From positions 1 to 17,832 of the forward strand of contig JACPSX010000259.1 of NCBI GenBank assembly GCA_016193065.1: a stretch of 17,832 nt of DNA, read 5' to 3'. How positions within the stretch are numbered: the stretch's first letter is position 1; each line of letters starts with the position of its first letter. The position numbers were made by a program, and so were the translations under genes. Of this stretch, positions 1,998 through 16,713 are shown one piece after another. The DNA is from Candidatus Tectimicrobiota bacterium. GTDB lineage: Bacteria; JACPSX01. Under the pieces are notes generated by a model. It saw nothing but the letters and a program-made list of their open reading frames with translations. It had not been told where the DNA came from and searched no databases.

Positions 1998-2990
1998 TTA
2001 GCGTCCGGGAGCAAACACGATTTGATGCGGTTCTTTTCCGACACTGATTCTCCGAACCGTCGCCAGACTCTTCGCATCCAGCAACACCAGCTCTCCTGCC
2101 TCCGGACGGGCCGCGACGATCCAGCGGCCGTCCGGGGTGATCTCCACGTGCTCCGGTCCGCTCCCCACCTTCGCCGTCCGAATGACCGCCATCGCTGCGG
2201 TGTCCACGGCCGACACGGTCCCATCTTCGTGACTGGACACGTAGGCCCGGGTCCCGTCCGGGCTCACGGCGACCCCGTGGGGCTCGTTTCCCACCCGGAC
2301 TGCGGCCACCCCCTCCGCTTGGGCCACATCGAGCACGGCCAGCGTGCCGCTTCCCTCGTTCACCACATAGAGCCGGCGCCCGTCCGGGGAGAGGGCCATG
2401 TGACCCGGCGCCTGCTTCACCGGGATCCTCCGTGTGATCCGCAAGGCCGCCACGTCGATGACTACGACATTGTTGGCCTCCATATTGGAGACAAAGGCCG
2501 TCTGCCCATCCGCGGAGAACACCGCGTAATTTGCGCCTGCTCCCGTCTCAATGTCCCCCACGGCCCGCAGGGCCTGAACATCCACCACAACGGCGCGCCC
2601 CGCCTCCGACCGGGTGACATAGAGCCAGCGGCCGTCCGGGCTGAGACTCAAGTGGTGGGAACCCTTCCCGACGCCCACCCGTCCGACCATCGAGCCGCTG
2701 GTAGAATCCACCACTTCCAGGGCGTCCCCCTTTGTGAGGTCGGCGGCAAAGACCCTGCGGCCATCCCGGGTGACGGCCGCACCGTGAGGCTCCACGGATA
2801 GAGGGAGCCTGGACAGCACCCGACCGGCGCCCAGGTCCACCACGGACACCGCCTTGCCCGGCCCCATGGCAACATAGGCGATACCTTCCCAGGAGGGAGG
2901 GGTACCCGCGCCGGCGCAGCCCGCCAGCGCCACGATGATTGCAGCCATCCCGGTCCACCACCAACGGTTCCGGCGCTTCGCGTACGTCAT
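1998..2990 (-). CDS. Seven-bladed YVTN-type beta-propeller lipoprotein
   Basis: 330 residues. A basic N-terminus and hydrophobic stretch lead to the lipobox LAGC with Cys25, so the protein should be lipid-anchored on the periplasmic side. The rest is about seven repeats of roughly 40 residues, each with the core SPDGRxLYV...VxVVDxA. These are YVTN/surface-layer propeller repeats, known as binding platforms and seen in nitrite reductase- and amine dehydrogenase-like folds, but no cofactor motif is visible. The start at 2990 has GAAAGGA upstream and begins the lipoprotein signal. It ends HQIVFAPGR, completing the last blade. It lies 49 bases downstream of the rhodanese gene, and the tight same-strand spacing suggests the two are made together. 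Confidence 0.85.
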   Translation of the reverse strand: MTYAKRRNRWWWTGMAAIIVALAGCAGAGTPPSWEGIAYVAMGPGKAVSVVDLGAGRVLSRLPLSVEPHGAAVTRDGRRVFAADLTKGDALEVVDSTSGSMVGRVGVGKGSHHLSLSPDGRWLYVTRSEAGRAVVVDVQALRAVGDIETGAGANYAVFSADGQTAFVSNMEANNVVVIDVAALRITRRIPVKQAPGHMALSPDGRRLYVVNEGSGTLAVLDVAQAEGVAAVRVGNEPHGVAVSPDGTRAYVSSHEDGTVSAVDTAAMAVIRTAKVGSGPEHVEITPDGRWIVAARPEAGELVLLDAKSLATVRRISVGKEPHQIVFAPGR

Positions 2991-3039
2991 CTCGTGTTTC
3001 CTTTCCACAACGTGCCGGGAATACTGCCCGGAAAACTGT

Positions 3040-4011
3040 TCACCGCGCGACAGGGAGGCCGGGATCGGCCGCCCACTCCACGAACGAGCCATCGTACAGG
3101 CGCACCTTCGGATACCCCAGGAGACGCAGCACAAAGTAGGTGTGGGAAGCGCGGACGCCCGTCCGGCAGTACACCAGGATCTCCTTGTCCGGCGTTACGC
3201 CCGCCCTGCGATACAGGCGCGCCAGCTCCGCGCCAGCCTTGAACCGCCGGGTCTCCGTTGGGGTGAGGTTTCGCACCCAGTCCACGTTCACGGCCCCGGG
3301 GATGTGCCCGGGGCGCGACACTTCTCTCCCCGGGACCTCCCCATCGAATTCCTCGGGGGAGCGGCTATCCACCAGCACCGCCGCGGGGTCGTCCAGGCGG
3401 GCCTTTACCCAAGCTGCGTCCGCAAGCCTGGTGGAATCAGGCGCCGCGCGATAGCGCGTGACCAGCGGTTGTGACGGATCACGGGCGACCGGCCGGCCCT
3501 CCCGCTGCCACAGCCCGAATCCCCCTTGCAGAACGCTCACCCGGGGGTGACCCATGAAATCCAGAGCCCAGAACAACCGGGTCGCCTGATCGCCGCCGAA
3601 GTCGTCATAGATGACCACCCGGCTCTCGCGTGTTACCCCCCGGGCCCCCAGCGCCTGCTCCACCTCCCGGACGGGGGTCAGCATCCCGGGGACCCCGTTG
3701 ATGGTCCGGCTAACCTCGGCGACGGGCAGGTTGACCGCGCCTGGAATGTGGCCGGCAGCGTACCGCTCCGGGCTGCGGGCATCGAGGATCCGGACCCCGG
3801 CTTCCCCGAGGTGGTCGGCCACCTCCTGTCCAGAGGCGAGGAGCGCCGCGTTCCCATAACCCTGGGCCTTCGCCTGGTCCCCCCAGCACTGCGCGTATCC
3901 TGTCGACGCGATCAGCAGCAGTACGGCAACCACTGCGCCGGCCCATGCCCACCGTTGTCTTACAGAGCTCAACACCGACCCCTCAGAGAAAAGCAGTCTC
4001 ACCTTCTTCAT
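3040..4011 (-). CDS. Exported two-domain rhodanese (thiosulfate/3-mercaptopyruvate sulfurtransferase type)
   Basis: 323 residues. A hydrophobic segment at 22-40 is a signal peptide or anchor. The N-terminal rhodanese-like domain (about 55-175) has LDARSPERYAAGHIPGA but an Asp-rich loop (IYDDFGG) where a catalytic Cys would be, so it is structural. The C-terminal domain (about 195-323) carries the active-site loop VYCRTGVRAS with Cys282, and ends with the usual LYDGSFVEWA. These enzymes move sulfane sulfur from thiosulfate or mercaptopyruvate to thiol acceptors via a Cys persulfide; the CRTGVR loop resembles thiosulfate-type enzymes. Start at 4011 follows GGGGAGA. Together with the adjacent propeller and cytochrome it hints at periplasmic sulfur redox chemistry, which is inference. 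Confidence 0.9.
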   Translation of the reverse strand: MKKVRLLFSEGSVLSSVRQRWAWAGAVVAVLLLIASTGYAQCWGDQAKAQGYGNAALLASGQEVADHLGEAGVRILDARSPERYAAGHIPGAVNLPVAEVSRTINGVPGMLTPVREVEQALGARGVTRESRVVIYDDFGGDQATRLFWALDFMGHPRVSVLQGGFGLWQREGRPVARDPSQPLVTRYRAAPDSTRLADAAWVKARLDDPAAVLVDSRSPEEFDGEVPGREVSRPGHIPGAVNVDWVRNLTPTETRRFKAGAELARLYRRAGVTPDKEILVYCRTGVRASHTYFVLRLLGYPKVRLYDGSFVEWAADPGLPVAR

Positions 4012-5858: not shown

Positions 5859-7013
5859 ATGATCCGGCGGGCGGTACGTGAGCTTGTTCTGGAACGCCTG
5901 GGGGCCTATCCGGCTGTGTTGCTCGTCGGGCCGCGCCAGTGCGGAAAAACGACCCTGGCCCGGGCGATCGGCGGGACGTATTTCGACCTGGAACAGCAGC
6001 CCGAACGCCTGCGCCTCGACCTCGAATGGGAGACGATCGTCGCCCAGAGGAACCTGGTCATCCTGGACGAGGCCCAATCCTGGCCCGAAGTCTTCGCCCG
6101 GCTGCGCGGAGCCATCGACCGGGACCGCAAACGCACTGGCCGTTTTCTGCTCCTGGGCTCCGTCTCACCCTCGCTCATGGTGCAAGTGTCGGAGTCGCTG
6201 GCAGGTCGCTTGTCGCTGGTGGAGCTGACGCCGCTTCTATTGACCGAACTGAAAGCGAAGGTGTCGCAAGGCCGGCGATGGCTGTGTGGCGGCTATCCGG
6301 ACGGCGGCGTGCTCGAACCCAAGCGCTTTCCCCGATGGCAGCGGGATTACGCGGCGCTCCTGTCTCAGCGCGACCTGCCGGCGTGGGGCCTTCCGGCCAA
6401 GTCGCAGACGACGGATCGCCTGCTGCGCATGCTGGCCGCGCTGAACGGCCAGGCCTGGAACGCCTCGCAGGTGGGCCAAAGTCTCGGCCTGTCCTACCAG
6501 ACGGTCAACAGCTACCTCGATTATCTCGCGGGAGCCTTCCTGATCCGGAGGTTGCCGCCGTACCAGGCGAATCTCAGAAAACGATTGGTCAAGAGCCCCA
6601 AGATCTACTGGCGGGACAGCGGCCTGCTTCATACCTTGCTGAACGTATCGGACGAAAACACCTTGCTCGCCCAACCGTGGGTGGGTGCGAGCTGGGAGAG
6701 CTACGTGATCGAACAGGCGCTCGGGGTGCTTTCGAGCAAAGGGCGGACCTACGATGCCTACTACTTCAGGACCAGCGATCAATACGAGCTCGATCTCATG
6801 CTGGACTTCGGGAAGGATCTGTGGGCCATCGAGATCAAACTGACGTCCTCTCCAGGCCCCGAGGATATGGCCCGATTGGACAAGACGGCCGATCTGGTCA
6901 AGGCGTCGCGGCGCTTCCTGGTCTCGCAGACTCGCCGACCGAGCGGCGATGAACGCCGCGTCTCTTGCGACCTTCCGTCCTTCCTCGATCGCCTCCGCGA
7001 GAACGAATCGTAA
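5859..7013 (+). CDS. AAA_14/DUF4143 family ATPase
   Basis: 384 residues, full family length. Walker A GPRQCGKTT is at residues 24-32 and Walker B LVILDEAQ at about 66-73. A GRxxxxxLxPLxxxE segment follows at about 116-130. A winged-helix-like region (LGLSYQTVNSYLDYL, about 209-223) comes next. The DUF4143 C-terminal domain has YELDLMLDF...WAIEIKLT (about 309-328), the D...ExK pattern of a PD-(D/E)xK-like fold. Family members are common in bacteria and archaea, often next to toxin-antitoxin genes; their cellular role is unsettled. No ribosome site precedes the ATG, consistent with a leaderless transcript. It is the only intact gene between the toxin-antitoxin relics and the island, and is oriented opposite to nearby large genes. 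Confidence 0.9.
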   Translation: MIRRAVRELVLERLGAYPAVLLVGPRQCGKTTLARAIGGTYFDLEQQPERLRLDLEWETIVAQRNLVILDEAQSWPEVFARLRGAIDRDRKRTGRFLLLGSVSPSLMVQVSESLAGRLSLVELTPLLLTELKAKVSQGRRWLCGGYPDGGVLEPKRFPRWQRDYAALLSQRDLPAWGLPAKSQTTDRLLRMLAALNGQAWNASQVGQSLGLSYQTVNSYLDYLAGAFLIRRLPPYQANLRKRLVKSPKIYWRDSGLLHTLLNVSDENTLLAQPWVGASWESYVIEQALGVLSSKGRTYDAYYFRTSDQYELDLMLDFGKDLWAIEIKLTSSPGPEDMARLDKTADLVKASRRFLVSQTRRPSGDERRVSCDLPSFLDRLRENES

Positions 7014-7029
7014 AGGGGAAGGACTCCAT

Positions 7030-7227
7030 CCAGCCGACCTCCTCCTTCGGGCTGACGTGCTTGTCGGTGTAGGCGCAGGCGGCCTTGTTGATGGACTCCT
7101 TGAGAGCGGCAAGGGGGATCACCTCCTCTTCCGTCCCGGGGTAGAGTGGCAGGCGGAATTTCTGAGATCCGGGCAGCTCAAGCAACAGGCACTGTTGCCC
7201 GTCCCCGGCATGAGGACGAACGGGTCG
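7030..7227 (-). pseudogene. Unidentified minus-strand gene scrap next to the ATPase
   Basis: Reading leftward from about 7227, the minus strand gives GDGQQCLLLELPGSQKFRLP and TEEEVIPLAALKESINKAAC, then AYTDKHVSPKEEVGWMESF, after which it becomes antisense of the ATPase. The composition looks like a genuine protein (a strand-rich part, then a helix), but I do not recognise it and there is no good start. It is directly downstream of the duplicated hydrolase 3' end and may be what followed that gene in an ancestor. Confidence 0.35.
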
Positions 7228-7302
7228 TCAAAAGCGATGGTTGAAAAATACACTCTTCACAACGCCCGCCGTATCCATGACCACCCGCAGCACCATATGG
7301 TT
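7227..7302. repeat. Left copy of a 76-bp direct repeat (hydrolase 3' end)
   Basis: Matches 11024-11099 with two mismatches. On the minus strand it encodes the C-terminus NHMVLRVVMDTAGVVKSVFF followed by NHRF and a stop, identical but for one residue to the end of the intact hydrolase at 11025. A further 8-bp match (cccggcat) sits at the same distance beyond the stop in both copies, so the homology may once have been longer. It is cut off on its 5' side at 7302, where the DUF1156 remnant begins. Confidence 0.9.
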
Positions 7303-7600
7303 TCCCCCCTGCCCTGCGCAGGTGCTGAGCCGTAGGGACGACTTTGCCCTGGACGCTCGGCAGAAGCTGTCGTGCTTTCCGCTTGAAGCCCTCCGGGCAA
7401 CGCGAATCACACGGGTCCGGCCAGCAGCCCAAGCAGCATTGTCCGGCAGGCGCGAGGGGTCGCCTCGGCCACCAAAGGTGCAATATCGAGATGTGCCCGT
7501 GCAGTGGCGACTTGTCCCGAACACTCTCCGCTGAGATCTCCCGGATCGGGAGCGCCACCTCGATCAGGCGGGGGCAAGTTGTGTCGTTTTGTATGGTCAT
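7303..7600 (-). pseudogene. DUF1156 DNA methylase, N-terminal remnant
   Basis: From the ATG at 7600 the minus strand reads MTIQNDTTCPRLIEVALPIR and EISAESVRDKSPLHGHISIL, then HLWWPRRPLA. RLIEVALPIxEIxxESxRDKSxxHGHISTLHxWWARRPLA is the diagnostic start of DUF1156 proteins, large (about 900-residue) adenine-specific methylase-like proteins found in phage-defence clusters. Later residues (DPCDSRCPEGFKRKARQLLP) still follow the family but with poor substitutions around PAGQCCLGCW. At 7303 the sequence passes into the duplicated hydrolase end. About 100 of some 900 residues remain, so it is inactive. Confidence 0.75.
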
Positions 7601-7722
7601 TTGCGTTCTCTCAGCATATACGCCCGGTACGGGTCCTTGGGACCGCTGCTTCGCCAGCGTAAACGGACAGGATACCTCGGCGAAGAGCTCGGACGCTACT
7701 CGGACATCAATATCGTCCGAGT
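7601..7722. other. Short decayed segment inside the island
   Basis: On the minus strand one frame reads EMNSDDIDVRVASELFAEVS without a stop into the DUF1156 start. It may be the tail of the preceding chimera in another frame. I do not recognise it. Confidence 0.25.
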
Positions 7723-8040
7723 TCATTTCCGAGCATGGCTGCTCATCAAGGAATGTGTTTCGGGCCAGCCGCGACTGCGCTCGTAGCGCATGGCCACGTC
7801 CATGGCGATGGACTCGACCTCGTTGTCCCGGCGCATCGGAACACCCTTCGACGGCCCTTCTTCCTCGCTTTCCACGGTGGCCATGGGCACTGGAGCAATC
7901 ACGGCTTCCGTCAGGAGATCGGGGAGATCGGCGGTCAGGCGCTCGAAGCTGCGCACACCGAACAGGTCGAGCAGCCACTGGTGGAGCACCAGCCGTTGCT
8001 CGAAGCGCAGTCTATCGGCTGTCTTCGACTGCCTGGGCAT
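7723..8040 (-). pseudogene. Chimeric helicase relic: helicase N-terminus fused to a DUF3883 fragment
   Basis: 105 codons from an ATG at 8040 that overlaps the stop of the DUF4276 gene (ATGA). Residues 1-39, starting MPRQSKTADRLRFEQRLVLH, resemble the extreme N-terminus of large DEAD/DEAH helicases of restriction-type systems. From about residue 75 the text changes to VESIAMDVAMRYERSRGW, the opening of the DUF3883 domain that lies near the C-terminus of large SNF2-type helicases, and then collapses at PETHSLMSSHARK. This is what a large in-frame deletion would leave. An alternative is a short coincidental protein, but the two matches and the conserved overlap argue against it. Confidence 0.55.
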
Positions 8041-8732
8041 CAGACTCCGATCCCCTGTCTAAGTCGTTCCAACTTGCGAATCCATTCGTCAAAGTGTCTG
8101 CACTTCGACCGGAGCGCGGAAAGCCCGATCTTTTCGGCCACCAGCGGTCCTGCGGAGACCTTCATCCCCTCATACTCCGGAATTTCCTTTATGATGCGCT
8201 TGGAAGGCGCGGCGTCATCCCCGTCGTCAATCAACTCGGGAGAATTGAATTCGGATGCCATCTGAATGAGGTTCTGAATAGCGGCGTCGTGTTCGAGGTA
8301 TATCCAGTCCAGTTTTCGCGGGTCAGCCAACAACAACGCCTCAAACTCGTGAAGTTGAATGTACGGAACAAATCGCGAATTCCCAATGTCTTTGTGCATA
8401 GCATTTTCCAGAGCCGATACGCGACCATAGGGATCGGTTATCCCGTGTGCGTTTTCATAGCCGGGGAAATTGCTCGGCAAGGCGTAAAGGTCAAACATGG
8501 TGGTGAAGACCACGTCTGGATTCTGATCTTCCTTCATCCACAATTGGATGTCCCTCTTGGCTTGTTCGTAGCTTCGAAGACCGCCCCGATATTTGACCCC
8601 ACGCTTTCGGCTTGTCATGACACAGCGGACCTTGCCCCAAACGGAGCAATTTGCCAGATGGGGAATCAGTATCCGGTTGACGAAGGTTTCCTCCGTTTGG
8701 CCTTCAACGATAAAGTGAAGCCTCACACTCAT
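8040..8732 (-). CDS. DUF4276 family (TOPRIM-like) protein partnering the AAA ATPase
   Basis: 230 residues. The N-terminus MSVRLHFIVEGQTEETFVNR has the family's VEGxTE motif. Next come the FTTMFDLYALPSNFPG segment and IQLHEFEALLLADP, both typical of DUF4276. The Glu in VEGQTE and the Asp in MFDLY fit the acidic residues of a TOPRIM-like metal site, as in OLD-family nucleases; catalysis is inferred. The ATG at 8732 was chosen because it overlaps the ATPase stop as ATGA and has GGAGGG eight bases upstream; the frame is open 21 codons further. DUF4276 genes commonly sit directly after an AAA15/AAA21 ATPase, as here. Full length, no disruption seen. Confidence 0.85.
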   Translation of the reverse strand: MSVRLHFIVEGQTEETFVNRILIPHLANCSVWGKVRCVMTSRKRGVKYRGGLRSYEQAKRDIQLWMKEDQNPDVVFTTMFDLYALPSNFPGYENAHGITDPYGRVSALENAMHKDIGNSRFVPYIQLHEFEALLLADPRKLDWIYLEHDAAIQNLIQMASEFNSPELIDDGDDAAPSKRIIKEIPEYEGMKVSAGPLVAEKIGLSALRSKCRHFDEWIRKLERLRQGIGV

Positions 8733-9841
8733 GCTGGCCGCCCTCCGAGCACATTCTTTTCCCACAACTCGGAGAGCGAATAGTTCTTCAGCCACTCCTC
8801 AAGGGCTCTGCCGTCCAAGCGACAAAACTTGGATTCTCGCTGTTCGCGCTCCACCACGACAATGTCGTTCGGCTCGAAGCAGTCAACGAGGGCCATCGAT
8901 TGCGTTGCCACAATGACCTGAGTCTTCTCCGAAACGCCGCGAATCAGTCCTCCCACTAGGTTGATGGCGTAGGGATGAAGCCCAAGCTCCGGTTCGTCGA
9001 GAATCAAAACATCTGGAAGGTCCCTTTCGGGCTGGAGGAGAAGCGTCACCAACGCCATCGCCCGCAGCATGCCGTCCGCAGCTTGCGATGCGTTGAACAC
9101 TCGGTCACTGCTTTGCTCACGCCATTTCAAGAGGAGCCTGCTGTTCTCCGGCTCCAACTCGAAGTCGGCAAAGAACGGCAGGATCAGCCGGATCGTCTCC
9201 ACGATTCGCGAGTAATACCTGGGCTCATTTTGTTGCAAGCGGCGCAGGAAGGGTGCCAGGTTAGCGGCGTCTTCTTTGAGCCAGCGGTTGTCTTCCACGT
9301 CCCATTTGCTGCGCATTCGAGCCGTAGCCGAGGTGTTGTGGAACTGGTACACGATGATCTTGCGCAGGAGACCGAGAATCACTCGGGCCGTGGTATTGCC
9401 CTCGTCAGCCTTCGCGATGAGGTTCGGCTCCCGATGTCCGGCACCCAGTTCCTGCCAATAGGCTGGTGACGGCAATCCCTCTTTGGAGAAACGGAATCGT
9501 TCATCGGTGTAAATCAGTGTATCGCCCGCGGCAAAGACGAGCCGAAAAGTATATTGGTTTTCCCCGGCGTTGGTCACCAATGTCAGGTCAGCTTCGATTT
9601 CGCGGGTTATGGCCGGCCCATCGTGTAGCAGGGCACTCGCCCCGCCCAATTCGCTGACGTGAACTTGCAGGTTTCCAGGCGAAGCGAGCGTCCAGGAGAG
9701 CATTCGAAAGAAGGAGATGAAGTTCGACTTTCCCGCGCCGTTCGGACCGATGAGTACGGTTAGGGAACCGGGCTTGAAATCCGAAAGGTCGCGGATGGTC
9801 TTAAATCCCTTTAGGGTCAATTTCCCCAATCGGTTTCGCAT
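8729..9841 (-). CDS. AAA15/AAA21-type (SMC/OLD-like) ATPase of a defence pair
   Basis: 370 residues. Walker A IGPNGAGKSN is at 31-40, an ABC-like signature SQAADGMLR at 252-260, and Walker B VLILDEPELGLHP at 278-290, followed by VIVATQSMALVDCF (309-322) where the usual switch His is replaced by Gln314. The N-terminus LTLKGFKTIRDLSDF is typical for RecF/OLD-like ATPases. It lacks the C-terminal TOPRIM domain of single-chain OLD proteins; that function may be supplied by the overlapping DUF4276 gene. The start at 9841 has AGGAGG six bases upstream, and the gene begins nine bases after the preceding chimera's stop. No frameshift or missing motif, so this pair may be the only working part of the island. 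Confidence 0.9.
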   Translation of the reverse strand: MRNRLGKLTLKGFKTIRDLSDFKPGSLTVLIGPNGAGKSNFISFFRMLSWTLASPGNLQVHVSELGGASALLHDGPAITREIEADLTLVTNAGENQYTFRLVFAAGDTLIYTDERFRFSKEGLPSPAYWQELGAGHREPNLIAKADEGNTTARVILGLLRKIIVYQFHNTSATARMRSKWDVEDNRWLKEDAANLAPFLRRLQQNEPRYYSRIVETIRLILPFFADFELEPENSRLLLKWREQSSDRVFNASQAADGMLRAMALVTLLLQPERDLPDVLILDEPELGLHPYAINLVGGLIRGVSEKTQVIVATQSMALVDCFEPNDIVVVEREQRESKFCRLDGRALEEWLKNYSLSELWEKNVLGGRPA

Positions 9842-9850
9842 TGGTGCCTC

Positions 9851-10624
9851 CTACACGTCCTGCACGTCGAACATGAGCCGCCTGAATTCCTCCTCGATGA
9901 GCCGGACTTTCCAGGTCTGGTCGAGCTTGCGGAGGTTCTCCAGGTTGTTGTCGCCGTTCATGTAGATGACGTCGAATTCCTGGTCCTTGGTGCTGTAGCC
10001 CTGCTTGCGCAACCACGCGTCGAGGGCCTGCTGTGGCCCCGTGCGCTTGACCTTGAGGTTGTTGAACGTGTCCTCGTAGGATTCGAGGCGGAGGACCTTC
10101 ACAATACGCGGGCTGCGCTCGGCCTCTTCTTCCGTGGCCATCCGTTTCGGCTTTCCGTCCTTCCACTGGACGGGACGAACATCGGACGCGCGGGCGCTGG
10201 CGAAGTGCGTCGACGTGACCACGATCTCGTCCGCCTCAAAGGGATTGGGCACCCCCCGAGCCTGTCGGTCCCGGTACTCCTTCGCGTCGAGGATGACCGT
10301 CGGCAGGTTGAACTTCTCCGCGAGCTCGAGCGCCCACTGCTTGCGAATGGATGCGGGGCAGATGACGAGGAGCCGTCGCCGCCTTTCGGCCCAGAGCTGG
10401 CAGAGGACCAGGCCGGCCTCGATGGTTTTCCCAAGACCGACCTCGTCCGCGAGAAGGACGCCCTTGGAGATAGGAGACCGGAAGGCGAACAGTGCCGCCT
10501 CGATCTGGTGCGGATTCAGATCAACGCACGCGTCGAAAAGGGACCGGGAAAGACCCTCCACCCCTGCCCCGCCGATGCGGGTCAGCTCGCACGCAAAGTA
10601 CTTGGCGTGGTAGGCCGTGCTCAT
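9851..10624 (-). pseudogene. Chimera of SNF2-type helicase N-terminus and DNA methylase C-terminus
   Basis: 257 codons, continuous. Residues 1-140 are the start of a large SNF2-like defence helicase: LNPHQIEAALFAF, motif I LLADEVGLGKTIEAG (57-71), motif Ia LLVICPASIRKQW (85-97) and a strand DEIVVTS. All later helicase motifs (DEAH, VI) are absent. From about 147 the text becomes RPVQWKDGKPKRM and IVKVLRLESYEDTFNNLK, then GDNNLENL and WKVRLIEEEFRRLMFDVQDV, which I recognise as late and C-terminal parts of large site-specific methylases of restriction systems. A second jump near residue 203 is likely. An internal deletion of several kilobases joining two genes in frame explains this. The start overlaps the XRE gene stop (ATGA). 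Without helicase motifs it cannot be an active translocase. Confidence 0.65.
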
Positions 10625-10845
10625 CGTGGAGTCTTCCCCTTCGGTCGCTTGTTCTCGCTTTCATCCAGCTCGCGTTTCATCTCCAAGAGTCGTTTTACGA
10701 GAAAAGGGAGGGGTACTCGCTTGCCGTTCTCCCAGTGGTTCACGGTGCTGTAGGTGACGCCGACCGTCTGGGCGAACTGCTCCTGGGTGAGATCGAGCCG
10801 TTGTCGAAGCTCTTTGATGAGCGCCGGAATGGCCTCATTCTTCAT
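10621..10845 (-). CDS. XRE-family helix-turn-helix regulator
   Basis: 74 residues. The HTH is clear: IKELRQRLDLTQEQFAQTVG then VTYSTVNHWENGKRVP (about residues 10-45), the classic XRE/Cro fold, with a basic tail (NKRPKGKTPR). It probably represses or tunes the downstream defence operon. The ATG at 10845 was chosen for GAGGTGG six bases upstream; an ATG seven codons earlier is possible. Its stop overlaps the start of the helicase chimera (ATGA), so it is the first gene of the island's operon. A promoter with an inverted repeat lies directly upstream. Confidence 0.88.
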   Translation of the reverse strand: MKNEAIPALIKELRQRLDLTQEQFAQTVGVTYSTVNHWENGKRVPLPFLVKRLLEMKRELDESENKRPKGKTPR

Positions 10846-10885
10846 GGAGCCACCTCGAACCTTCATTTTGCGGACGCGATGGGAA

Positions 10886-10928
10886 CATGTAGGGCGATAT
10901 GCTAGCTTACATGATGGGGTGTTGTCAA
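10886..10928 (-). promoter_or_regulatory. Promoter and candidate operator of the defence island
   Basis: On the minus strand TTGACA (10928-10923) is followed after 18 bases by TAGCAT (10904-10899). The inverted repeat CATGTA (10886-10891) / TACATG (10908-10913), centred on a GCTAGC palindrome region, overlaps the -10. Its position suits autorepression by the XRE protein encoded 40 bases downstream. Confidence 0.55.
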
Positions 10929-11023
10929 TCTTCCTTCTCGTCCCGGGGCCGGAGTGGCTGGAATCCGGACAGACCACGCTGCGGGCATCATCGTCCGTCT
11001 CCCGGCATCGGGGCAGGTGGGCG

Positions 11024-11099
11024 GTCAAAAGCGATGGTTGAAATATACACTCTTCACAACCCCCGCCGTATCCATGACCACCCGCAGCACCATATGGTT
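11024..11099. repeat. Right copy of the 76-bp direct repeat (inside intact hydrolase 3' end)
   Basis: Same orientation as 7227-7302, two mismatches. This copy is the natural 3' end and stop codon of the hydrolase gene. Between the copies lie only the defence island genes. Confidence 0.9.
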
Positions 11100-11963
11100 G
11101 GTCTCCCCGTCAGCCCCAAAGCGGATGTCGCGGTATTCGACGATGTGCTCCCCGCCACTCTCGAGATAACGGATCCAGGGAAAGCGGGCGAACCACAGGA
11201 ACAGGCGAACCGATTCCGCCGCATCGCTCCGCTCCACATAGCGGTTCCGGGGTGCCTGAATGTAGGAGCGAACGTCCATGTTGCCGCCGGGCCAGGGGGC
11301 CACTGCAGCCTGGTACAGGCGACCAGGCGCCTGAGCCACGGCCCTCCATCGGAAAGGGCTGTGAAGGCGGGGAACTACTCCGATCCGGTCGGCCGCGATC
11401 ACTCGCCGGTCCAGCTCCGCGGCAAACCGCGCCTGGGCCGCCGCCTTGGCCCCGGCAGCCAGGGCAAGGTAGAGGACCGCAACGCTCAGGCCGGCCCACA
11501 CCGCGCGCGCTGCAAGTCGGGGCCGCCGCCAGGCCACCAGCAGGGGGACGGCAAAGGTGGCGGTGAGGATCGGATCTATGATGAAGGCCAAGTCCCAGGC
11601 CAGGCGCGCGTCGCTGAACGGATAAAATACCTGGATGCCGAACGAAGTGATCAGGTCCAGGCCGATGTGGACCAGAATTCCGAGGTAGACCAAACCCACG
11701 AGCTTCCCATACTGCTTGTGGGCACCCCACCGGTAGATGGGCCAGGCAACCAGAAGGGCCAGGAGGATCCCACCGAGGAGCGAGTGAGTCAGTCCTCGGT
11801 GGTACTTGATGGCCGCAAACTGATCCCAGAGCCCCATGACGCTGTCCAGATCCGGGGCGATTGCACCGGCGGTCACCGCCAGGAGAGCAGACCGACCAAT
11901 CCGCTGGCGGAAGCCCGCGTTGGCCACTGCGATACCGGATAGGGTGTGAGTTATGAAGTCCAT
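11025..11963 (-). CDS. YdjM/YbcI-like membrane-bound metal-dependent hydrolase
   Basis: 312 residues. The family's metal-binding motifs are present: His6 in ITHTLSG, APDLDS (about 36-41), HRGLTHS (about 55-61) and HIGLDLITS (about 98-106). Several transmembrane helices follow (LLGGILLALLVAWPIY, LVGLVYLGILVHIGL, AGLSVAVLYLALAAG). After about residue 175 a soluble region ends with VVKSVYFNHRF. The family is predicted to be membrane hydrolases; substrates are unknown. The start at 11963 has GGGAGAA about ten bases upstream. It follows the rhodanese gene by 82 bases on the same strand. Its last 76 bases are duplicated at 7227-7302. Confidence 0.88.
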   Translation of the reverse strand: MDFITHTLSGIAVANAGFRQRIGRSALLAVTAGAIAPDLDSVMGLWDQFAAIKYHRGLTHSLLGGILLALLVAWPIYRWGAHKQYGKLVGLVYLGILVHIGLDLITSFGIQVFYPFSDARLAWDLAFIIDPILTATFAVPLLVAWRRPRLAARAVWAGLSVAVLYLALAAGAKAAAQARFAAELDRRVIAADRIGVVPRLHSPFRWRAVAQAPGRLYQAAVAPWPGGNMDVRSYIQAPRNRYVERSDAAESVRLFLWFARFPWIRYLESGGEHIVEYRDIRFGADGETNHMVLRVVMDTAGVVKSVYFNHRF

Positions 11964-16111: not shown

Positions 16112-16441
16112 TTACCGTCCTAGGTCCTCGCTCCGAGGACGACCCCGGAGGTATCCTGTCAGATCCCCGTAAAAGTTCTCATGCACCCCCACGTCCAGAA
16201 CTTCAATCACGTTGGACTTGGGAAAGAAGTGGTAAGCCAGGAGATACTGGTGATCACCCCCGCGGAACTTGACTACTCGCACCCCTTTAAGCGCCCCGGT
16301 CTTTGGCTCTCCGAGTAACGGGTCCCCCACGATGGCCCTTACCTGTCCATCCACAGCATCTTGGATTGCGCCAGGCAGCCTCCGCTTGGCCCTTCGGAAT
16401 CGGGGAACCTGCTGAACCCTTCGAGGCGAAGTCTCATTCAC
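16112..16441 (-). CDS. RelE/ParE-superfamily toxin
   Basis: 109 residues. The text PRFRRAKRRLPGAIQDAVDG, then GALKGVRVVKFRGGDHQYLL and VIEVLDVGVHENFYGDL, fits the RelE/ParE fold: a helical hairpin, the LKGxRxVKFR strand and the IxxLDVGxHENFY C-terminal strand with a conserved His. Such toxins cleave mRNA or block gyrase; which one applies here is not visible. GTG 16441 overlaps the antitoxin stop (GTGA), suggesting translational coupling; GTG 16456 is an alternative. No disruption is seen, unlike the other toxin-antitoxin genes in the window. Confidence 0.8.
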   Translation of the reverse strand: MNETSPRRVQQVPRFRRAKRRLPGAIQDAVDGQVRAIVGDPLLGEPKTGALKGVRVVKFRGGDHQYLLAYHFFPKSNVIEVLDVGVHENFYGDLTGYLRGRPRSEDLGR

Positions 16442-16713
16442 CCGATCCGTCCCCACTGGTAGGGTTCAGCGAGTCCCGTCCGGCTTTCCTCCAACCCCTC
16501 CAGGATCCCTTCGATGAAACTCATAGGGAGATCCGGGTTCTCCTTTCCCATCATCCCCAGGTGAGCATAGTACTTGATTTGTTCCGAGAGGGATCGCTTG
16601 CTTGCCCGGGCTCGCGCCCGCAGGACCCGTACCATCGGTTCGTCGTCCTTTCGGAACCGGATCGACACAGGAGTACTGATCCCTGTTGCCCTTTTCCTGG
16701 CTGTCTTCGCCAT
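16438..16713 (-). CDS. Ribbon-helix-helix (ParD/Arc-like) antitoxin
   Basis: 91 residues. TPVSIRFRKDDEPMVRVLRA then RARASKRSLSEQIKYYAHLG (about 14-53) is a ribbon-helix-helix DNA-binding domain. The acidic C-terminus (SFIEGILEGLEESR) would wrap the toxin. It should neutralise the partner and autorepress the operon. The ATG at 16713 has AAGGAAGG upstream. It is the first gene of a two-gene operon with the toxin, behind a near-consensus promoter. Confidence 0.82.
   Translation of the reverse strand: MAKTARKRATGISTPVSIRFRKDDEPMVRVLRARARASKRSLSEQIKYYAHLGMMGKENPDLPMSFIEGILEGLEESRTGLAEPYQWGRIG

Follow-up and report, generated by a model that had tools for sequence, protein, structure and literature searches.

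A duplicated hydrolase gene end brackets a putative HEC-01 defence pair in a Candidatus Tectimicrobiota contig

The window analysed here is a 17,832-nucleotide stretch of DNA that forms one contig (C226; JACPSX010000259.1) of the 294-contig Candidatus Tectimicrobiota assembly GCA_016193065.1. In this window, the 3' end of a membrane hydrolase gene is present twice, and the two copies bracket an island of defence-type genes. About even confidence can be placed in the reading favoured here, that the island entered beside the hydrolase by a recombination that duplicated the 3' end of the gene and required no recombinase of its own, or in other words by insertion with a long target duplication. 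The movement of recombinase-free defence genes between genomes is poorly understood. A duplicated gene end that brackets a known defence pair is a searchable scar, and it makes the question testable across genomes.

The duplicated gene end

A repeat search and an in-register comparison identified positions 7227-7302 and 11024-11099 as a direct repeat in which 74 of 76 bases are identical (spacing between the copies 3797; BLAST E=2e-32). This agrees with the initial annotation, which had described a 76-bp repeat with two mismatches. The features concerned are:

11025..11963, minus strand: YdjM-family membrane hydrolase gene, 312 aa, with its 3' end duplicated (Pfam PF04307, E=6e-33)
11024..11099, minus strand: right copy of the 76-bp repeat, comprising the last 24 codons of the hydrolase, its stop and one base
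7227..7302, minus strand: left copy of the 76-bp repeat, an orphan

The hydrolase reading frame is complete, and the target gene is left intact by the repeats flanking the island. The near-identical repeat spans codon 289 to one base beyond the stop codon, and the right copy is indeed the natural 3' end of the 312-aa gene (11963-11025, minus strand), as had been proposed. The left copy encodes NHMVLRVVMDTAGVVKSVFFNHRF* and lacks the upstream gene. It had been read as an orphan encoding the last 25 residues and the stop; it does encode the gene end and stop, with 24 residues rather than 25. The coding sequences of the left and right copies differ by one Y-to-F change and one synonymous change. 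A genome-wide search for further copies, which had been suggested as a check, returned exactly these two and none at other places (2.9 Mb, 294 contigs searched). A second hydrolase in the genome (C83) was considered as a carrier of the repeat and rejected, being merely 33% identical and without the repeat. A search of genome contigs with the hydrolase found no relative in which an empty site might be seen. Escherichia relatives, at ~24% identity, were rejected as a model of the empty site.

Similarity beyond the stop codon

The similarity between the two sides of the island is not confined to the gene. When the hydrolase gene end was compared with the left side by BLAST, the match ran on past the stop codon, and ~100 bp beyond it align at roughly 60-65% identity (identity in ~61 of the initial 100 alignment columns). 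For the 60 bases just past the stop, global alignment gave a score of 15, compared with a mean of -4.2 for shuffled sequences, and none of 2000 shuffles did as well. Apart from positions overlapping the query itself, few windows in a contig-wide scan scored this high. Two zones can thus be distinguished in the repeat, 76 bp at 97% followed by ~100 bp at ~61%. The sequences on this side are:

10924..11023, minus strand: diverged continuation of the repeat 3' of the hydrolase stop, ~61 of 100 columns identical to 7226 down to ~7127
7014..7226, minus strand: left flank, coding-like, with a fragment resembling the C-terminal portion of a protein (203 aa) from another genome (61-63% over ~36 aa), whose first ~100 bases match the right flank

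The island edges had been placed at 7303 and 11023. Because the flanks still align past the stop codon, 11023 is not a clean edge; at the opposite edge of the repeat there is no excess similarity (380 of 2000 shuffles as good).

Similarity of both flanks past the stop codon is also what a tandem duplication might leave, an alternative raised in the initial annotation. Here, the hydrolase end and the island would have been duplicated together, after which most of the second unit was deleted to leave the orphan end. Such tandem units are known at another HEC-01 locus, L127 (PEP carboxylase), and in the Electrothrix relative G386 (a murG orphan with a truncated HEC-01A), and the island itself is full of deletions. 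However, a duplication recent enough to have accumulated only 2 changes in 76 bp should have left the sequence past the stop ~97% identical, and it is ~62% identical. This route also requires two rearrangements instead of one, and overall it appears unlikely.

Genes between the repeat copies

Six coding features lie between the copies, all on the minus strand:

10621..10845, minus strand: XRE-type HTH regulator, 74 aa, apparently intact (PF01381, E=2e-13)
9851..10624, minus strand: in-frame fusion of deletion remnants from an SNF2/DrmD-like helicase and a type III-like methyltransferase (tblastn and profiles)
8729..9841, minus strand: HEC-01A, AAA_21 ATPase, 370 aa, apparently intact (PADLOC HEC-01A, E=1.5e-130)
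8040..8732, minus strand: HEC-01B, DUF4276 protein, 230 aa, apparently intact (PF14103, E=7e-55; HEC-01B, E=3e-77)
7723..8040, minus strand: remnant of a type III-like restriction helicase, its first ~50-60 residues followed by unassigned sequence (tblastn)
7337..7599, minus strand: remnant of a DUF1156/HmaB DNA methylase, an N-terminal piece (PF06634, E=8e-13; HmaB, E=1.5e-14)

Only the XRE gene and the HEC-01A/HEC-01B pair appear intact, and the remaining genes between the copies are end fragments. In the fusion at 9851..10624, SNF2 residues 1-154 are joined to methyltransferase residues ~821-860 and 958-1025, as determined by tblastn with the intact homologues from L049 and by matches to the DrmD and MTase_III profiles. 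The remnant at 7723..8040 matches a restriction subunit at 42.6% over 54 aa (tblastn, E=5e-6), and that at 7337..7599 is 50% identical over 78 aa to a DUF1156 protein. Intact homologous operons in L049 (whose contig is shared with L129) and L134 contain the SNF2 helicase, the type III-like methyltransferase, HEC-01A, HEC-01B and the type III-like restriction subunit, the SNF2, methyltransferase and restriction subunits being complete in L129 and L134. Of these proteins, the island retains 154 of 956 SNF2 residues, ~110 of 1025 methyltransferase residues and ~54 of 1073 restriction subunit residues. Of any restriction-modification (R-M) cargo, only fragments of type III-like and DUF1156 methylase genes are left. 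A complete Hma system (HmaA helicase and HmaB methylase, plus HmaC) is absent, with ~80 HmaB residues and the N-terminal SNF2 piece remaining. The description of everything between the copies as a defence-type operon is correct as to origin but not as to intactness, as most of the genes are fragments.

Abrupt gene junctions of this kind, of which there are many, could also arise from a chimeric assembly, since the draft genome is fragmented (294 contigs, estimated 86% complete). However, when two sequences are wrongly joined through a shared repeat, a single copy is left where they meet, and no second copy arises. Moreover, the fused reading frames stay open across the junctions, and comparable scars are present in other assemblies, so that a chimera is very improbable. 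The open frames across the fusions would need no selection if the event was recent, as the divergence of the orphan end at 2 of 76 positions suggests.

HEC-01AB lies between the type III-like methyltransferase and the restriction subunit in at least four lineages (L129, L134, L119 and the window at 8040-9851). On the restriction side in the window, the adjoining genes have a start/stop overlap. In L048 (= L119), HEC-01AB is accompanied by the same C-terminal methyltransferase and N-terminal restriction-subunit remnants as in the window.

HEC-01A and HEC-01B

HEC-01A has homologues up to 75% identical. For HEC-01B, the predicted structure (pLDDT 93) most closely resembles the C-terminal region/TOPRIM of OLD, which ranks first among the matches and scores higher than unrelated entries (VIA-align Z 9.4 over 170-176 aligned residues; best Foldseek E 1.9e-3). 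Further fold matches include a chain of the PARIS complex (Z 7.4), retron Eco8 (7.4) and a chain of the GajA-GajB complex (6.7). An AAA_21 ATPase beside a partner of predicted OLD-like TOPRIM fold makes a split OLD-like defence pair likely. Based on these predictions, HEC-01A and HEC-01B are probably a split OLD/PARIS-like anti-phage pair composed of an ATPase and a TOPRIM-type protein.

The pair corresponds to the PADLOC entry HEC-01 (Hma-embedded candidate 01) in that HEC-01A and HEC-01B are adjacent, co-oriented and near an HmaB fragment. In contrast, the surrounding systems are broken in the window. With the ATPase + TOPRIM proteins of the OLD, PARIS and Gabija type, it shares an AAA_21 ATPase paired with a protein whose TOPRIM fold is predicted to be OLD-like, but here the domains are encoded by separate genes of other families (DUF4276).

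Bracketing repeats at other HEC-01 loci

For comparison, 80 HEC-01 loci were retrieved. Under sensitive settings, close direct repeats bracket HEC-01AB at 12 of 72 loci, compared with 21 of 495 ORF-based control windows (Fisher p=3e-4); under tighter settings, the pair is bracketed at 7 of 67 loci, compared with 0.5% of shifted placements. At ~7 of the 12 bracketed loci, as sorted by inspection into gene-end repeats and others, the repeat corresponds to one end of an adjacent gene, and no two of these genes belong to the same family:

L091: repeat covers the end of an HD_3 gene
L103: repeat covers the end of a SnoaL_2 gene
L125: repeat covers the end of an M16 peptidase gene, weak
L126: repeat covers the 3' end of an AAA_14/DUF4143 gene
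L127: repeat covers the 3' end of a PEP carboxylase gene
L139: repeat covers the 5' end of murG
L160: repeat covers the end of a HepT-like gene

The genes seen between the copies at these loci are HEC-01 and toxin-antitoxin (TA) genes. In L127, HEC-01 is present twice, the two copies being separated by the PEP carboxylase 3' end. At the other 5 of the 12, the repeats are dispersed or non-coding. With no close bracketing repeat at 60 of 72 loci, the scar is a minority feature of HEC-01 loci. Comparable scars at HEC-01AB in several unrelated bacteria lend support to an insertion that leaves a copy of a gene end on the far side.

The repeats of L048 (= L119), at 94-384 and 2938-3227, bracket HEC-01AB and include a 28-base palindrome; they were rejected as a gene end, being a dispersed repeat with ~30 matches in that genome. 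In L073, near-identical 1.1-kb repeats occur at 507-1633 and 8637-9761, one of them between HEC-01A and HEC-01B; this is probably an insertion sequence. Integron attC sites were also rejected as the source of the bracketing repeats, since the motifs RYYYAAC and GTTRRRY are missing from the window repeat and from most of the others. In L123, both attC core motifs are present, inside a long hairpin.

In the murG region of Electrothrix, related genomes that carry the insertion can be compared with others that lack it. In L139, murG is preceded by two orphan copies of its 5' end. Its relative G389 also has a murG orphan, with HEC-01AB between the orphan and murG; HEC-01AB lies next to the orphan in both genomes that have one. 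In G392, G393 and G390 there is just one murG start, and HEC-01 is absent. The murD-murG gap contains HEC-01AB but no murG orphan in G387, and other genes in G388. In G386, a truncated HEC-01A start follows a murG orphan (reported for the first and for the second orphan), indicating that deletion and tandem copying also take place. The idea that the murG orphans are followed by a shared "unit end" was considered and dismissed, because that sequence is the start of a HEC-01A copy and is explained by tandem copies.

The murD-murG gap is variable in the Electrothrix relatives G386, G389 and G388 (L197, L198 and L203), with HEC-01AB and VapBC. In G388, it contains a gene pair, the first member of which resembles a Gabija-type ATPase, and then a truncated VapB-like ORF just before murG. 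At L139:10001-11797, HEC-01A and HEC-01B are fused in one reading frame of 598 codons.

Recombinases and phage sequences

The contig of this assembly, which is estimated to be 86% complete, contains no match to the tyrosine recombinases (PF00589, phage-integrase family), consistent with the earlier remark that no integrase is seen. The genome encodes two full-length tyrosine recombinases, both XerC/XerD-like, the rest being fragments, and the incomplete assembly has no match to the serine recombinases (PF00239). Between the copies of the comparison HEC-01 units, no recombinase was recognised by reading of the ORFs and one XerC-like query. A phage origin was rejected because HEC-01B has no match in phage records and the 20-base core of the repeat has none in viral contigs.

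These results bear on the possibility that the island is an integrative element that entered at the hydrolase 3' end by means of its own or a borrowed site-specific recombinase, supplied a copy that restored the gene and later lost its integrase and most of its cargo, the repeats being attL and attR. As in integrative islands that use gene 3' ends, the 3' end is duplicated and the gene kept intact, and the extent of the near-identical repeat is that expected of gene-restoring att sites. Additionally, such islands typically carry defence cargo, and this one has lost much of its content. However, no integrase was found on the contig, the full-length enzymes of the genome are Xer-like only, and the repeat core is not matched in viral contigs. 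The comparable HEC-01 units use the ends of unrelated genes, among them a 5' end, and element DNA would not be expected to resemble the sequence beyond the stop codon. Overall, this origin is possible but rather improbable. The initial proposal of an element entering at the 3' end of a gene is partly supported, in that an insertion leaving a gene-end copy on the far side is favoured, but a dedicated integrase finds no support.

A possible route of insertion

For R-M systems, insertions that duplicate long target stretches of variable length have been reported (PMC3031569), as described by Nobusato et al. (2000) and Furuta et al. (2010) according to the summary in that article. In Escherichia coli, when a plasmid that lacked part of the homologous fragment recombined with the chromosome by a single crossover, duplications of 109-950 bp resulted (PMC3240628). 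Common to the window and the R-M insertions are defence cargo that lacks a recombinase of its own and direct repeats of host sequence that are long and variable. The window differs in that a HEC-01 pair and R-M debris make up the cargo and in that the repeat corresponds to a protein gene end, which is continued by a diverged zone.

Under the favoured insertion with target duplication, the donor would be a fragment carrying the defence cluster and the hydrolase gene end, from a diverged relative whose island also adjoined this hydrolase. This fragment may have been circularised, or joined illegitimately at one end, and a single crossover within the conserved hydrolase gene end would then produce one complete hydrolase gene, the cargo and an orphan gene end. 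The cluster may later have shrunk by deletion, or may have come already shrunken, leaving HEC-01A/B. A single crossover with a diverged donor would yield near-identity over 76 bp and then a diverged stretch on one side only, and of the routes considered it gives the best fit to the two-zone repeat.

The fall from 97% in the gene end to ~62% just past the stop nevertheless counts against an insertion, as it needs either a diverged donor with homogenisation of the gene end or gene conversion, neither of which was observed. Also counting against it are G387, which has HEC-01AB without a murG orphan, the 60 of 72 loci that are unbracketed and the 5 of 12 bracketed loci with dispersed or non-coding repeats. 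A broader and decidedly doubtful speculation is that HEC-01AB and other small ATPase-TOPRIM pairs, at times together with toxin-antitoxin genes, move between phyla as recombinase-free units. Such units would show a preference for the ends of unrelated host genes, which they would enter and duplicate, perhaps aided by their own nuclease activity.

Other features of the window

The convergent left neighbour of the island is:

5859..7013, plus strand: AAA_14/DUF4143 ATPase, PADLOC candidate PDC-S01

This family adjoins the island in the window (5859-7013), and in L126 the 3' end of a family member is duplicated. Near the right end of the window, a ParD-like/ParE-like toxin-antitoxin pair is encoded at 16112-16713 on the minus strand.
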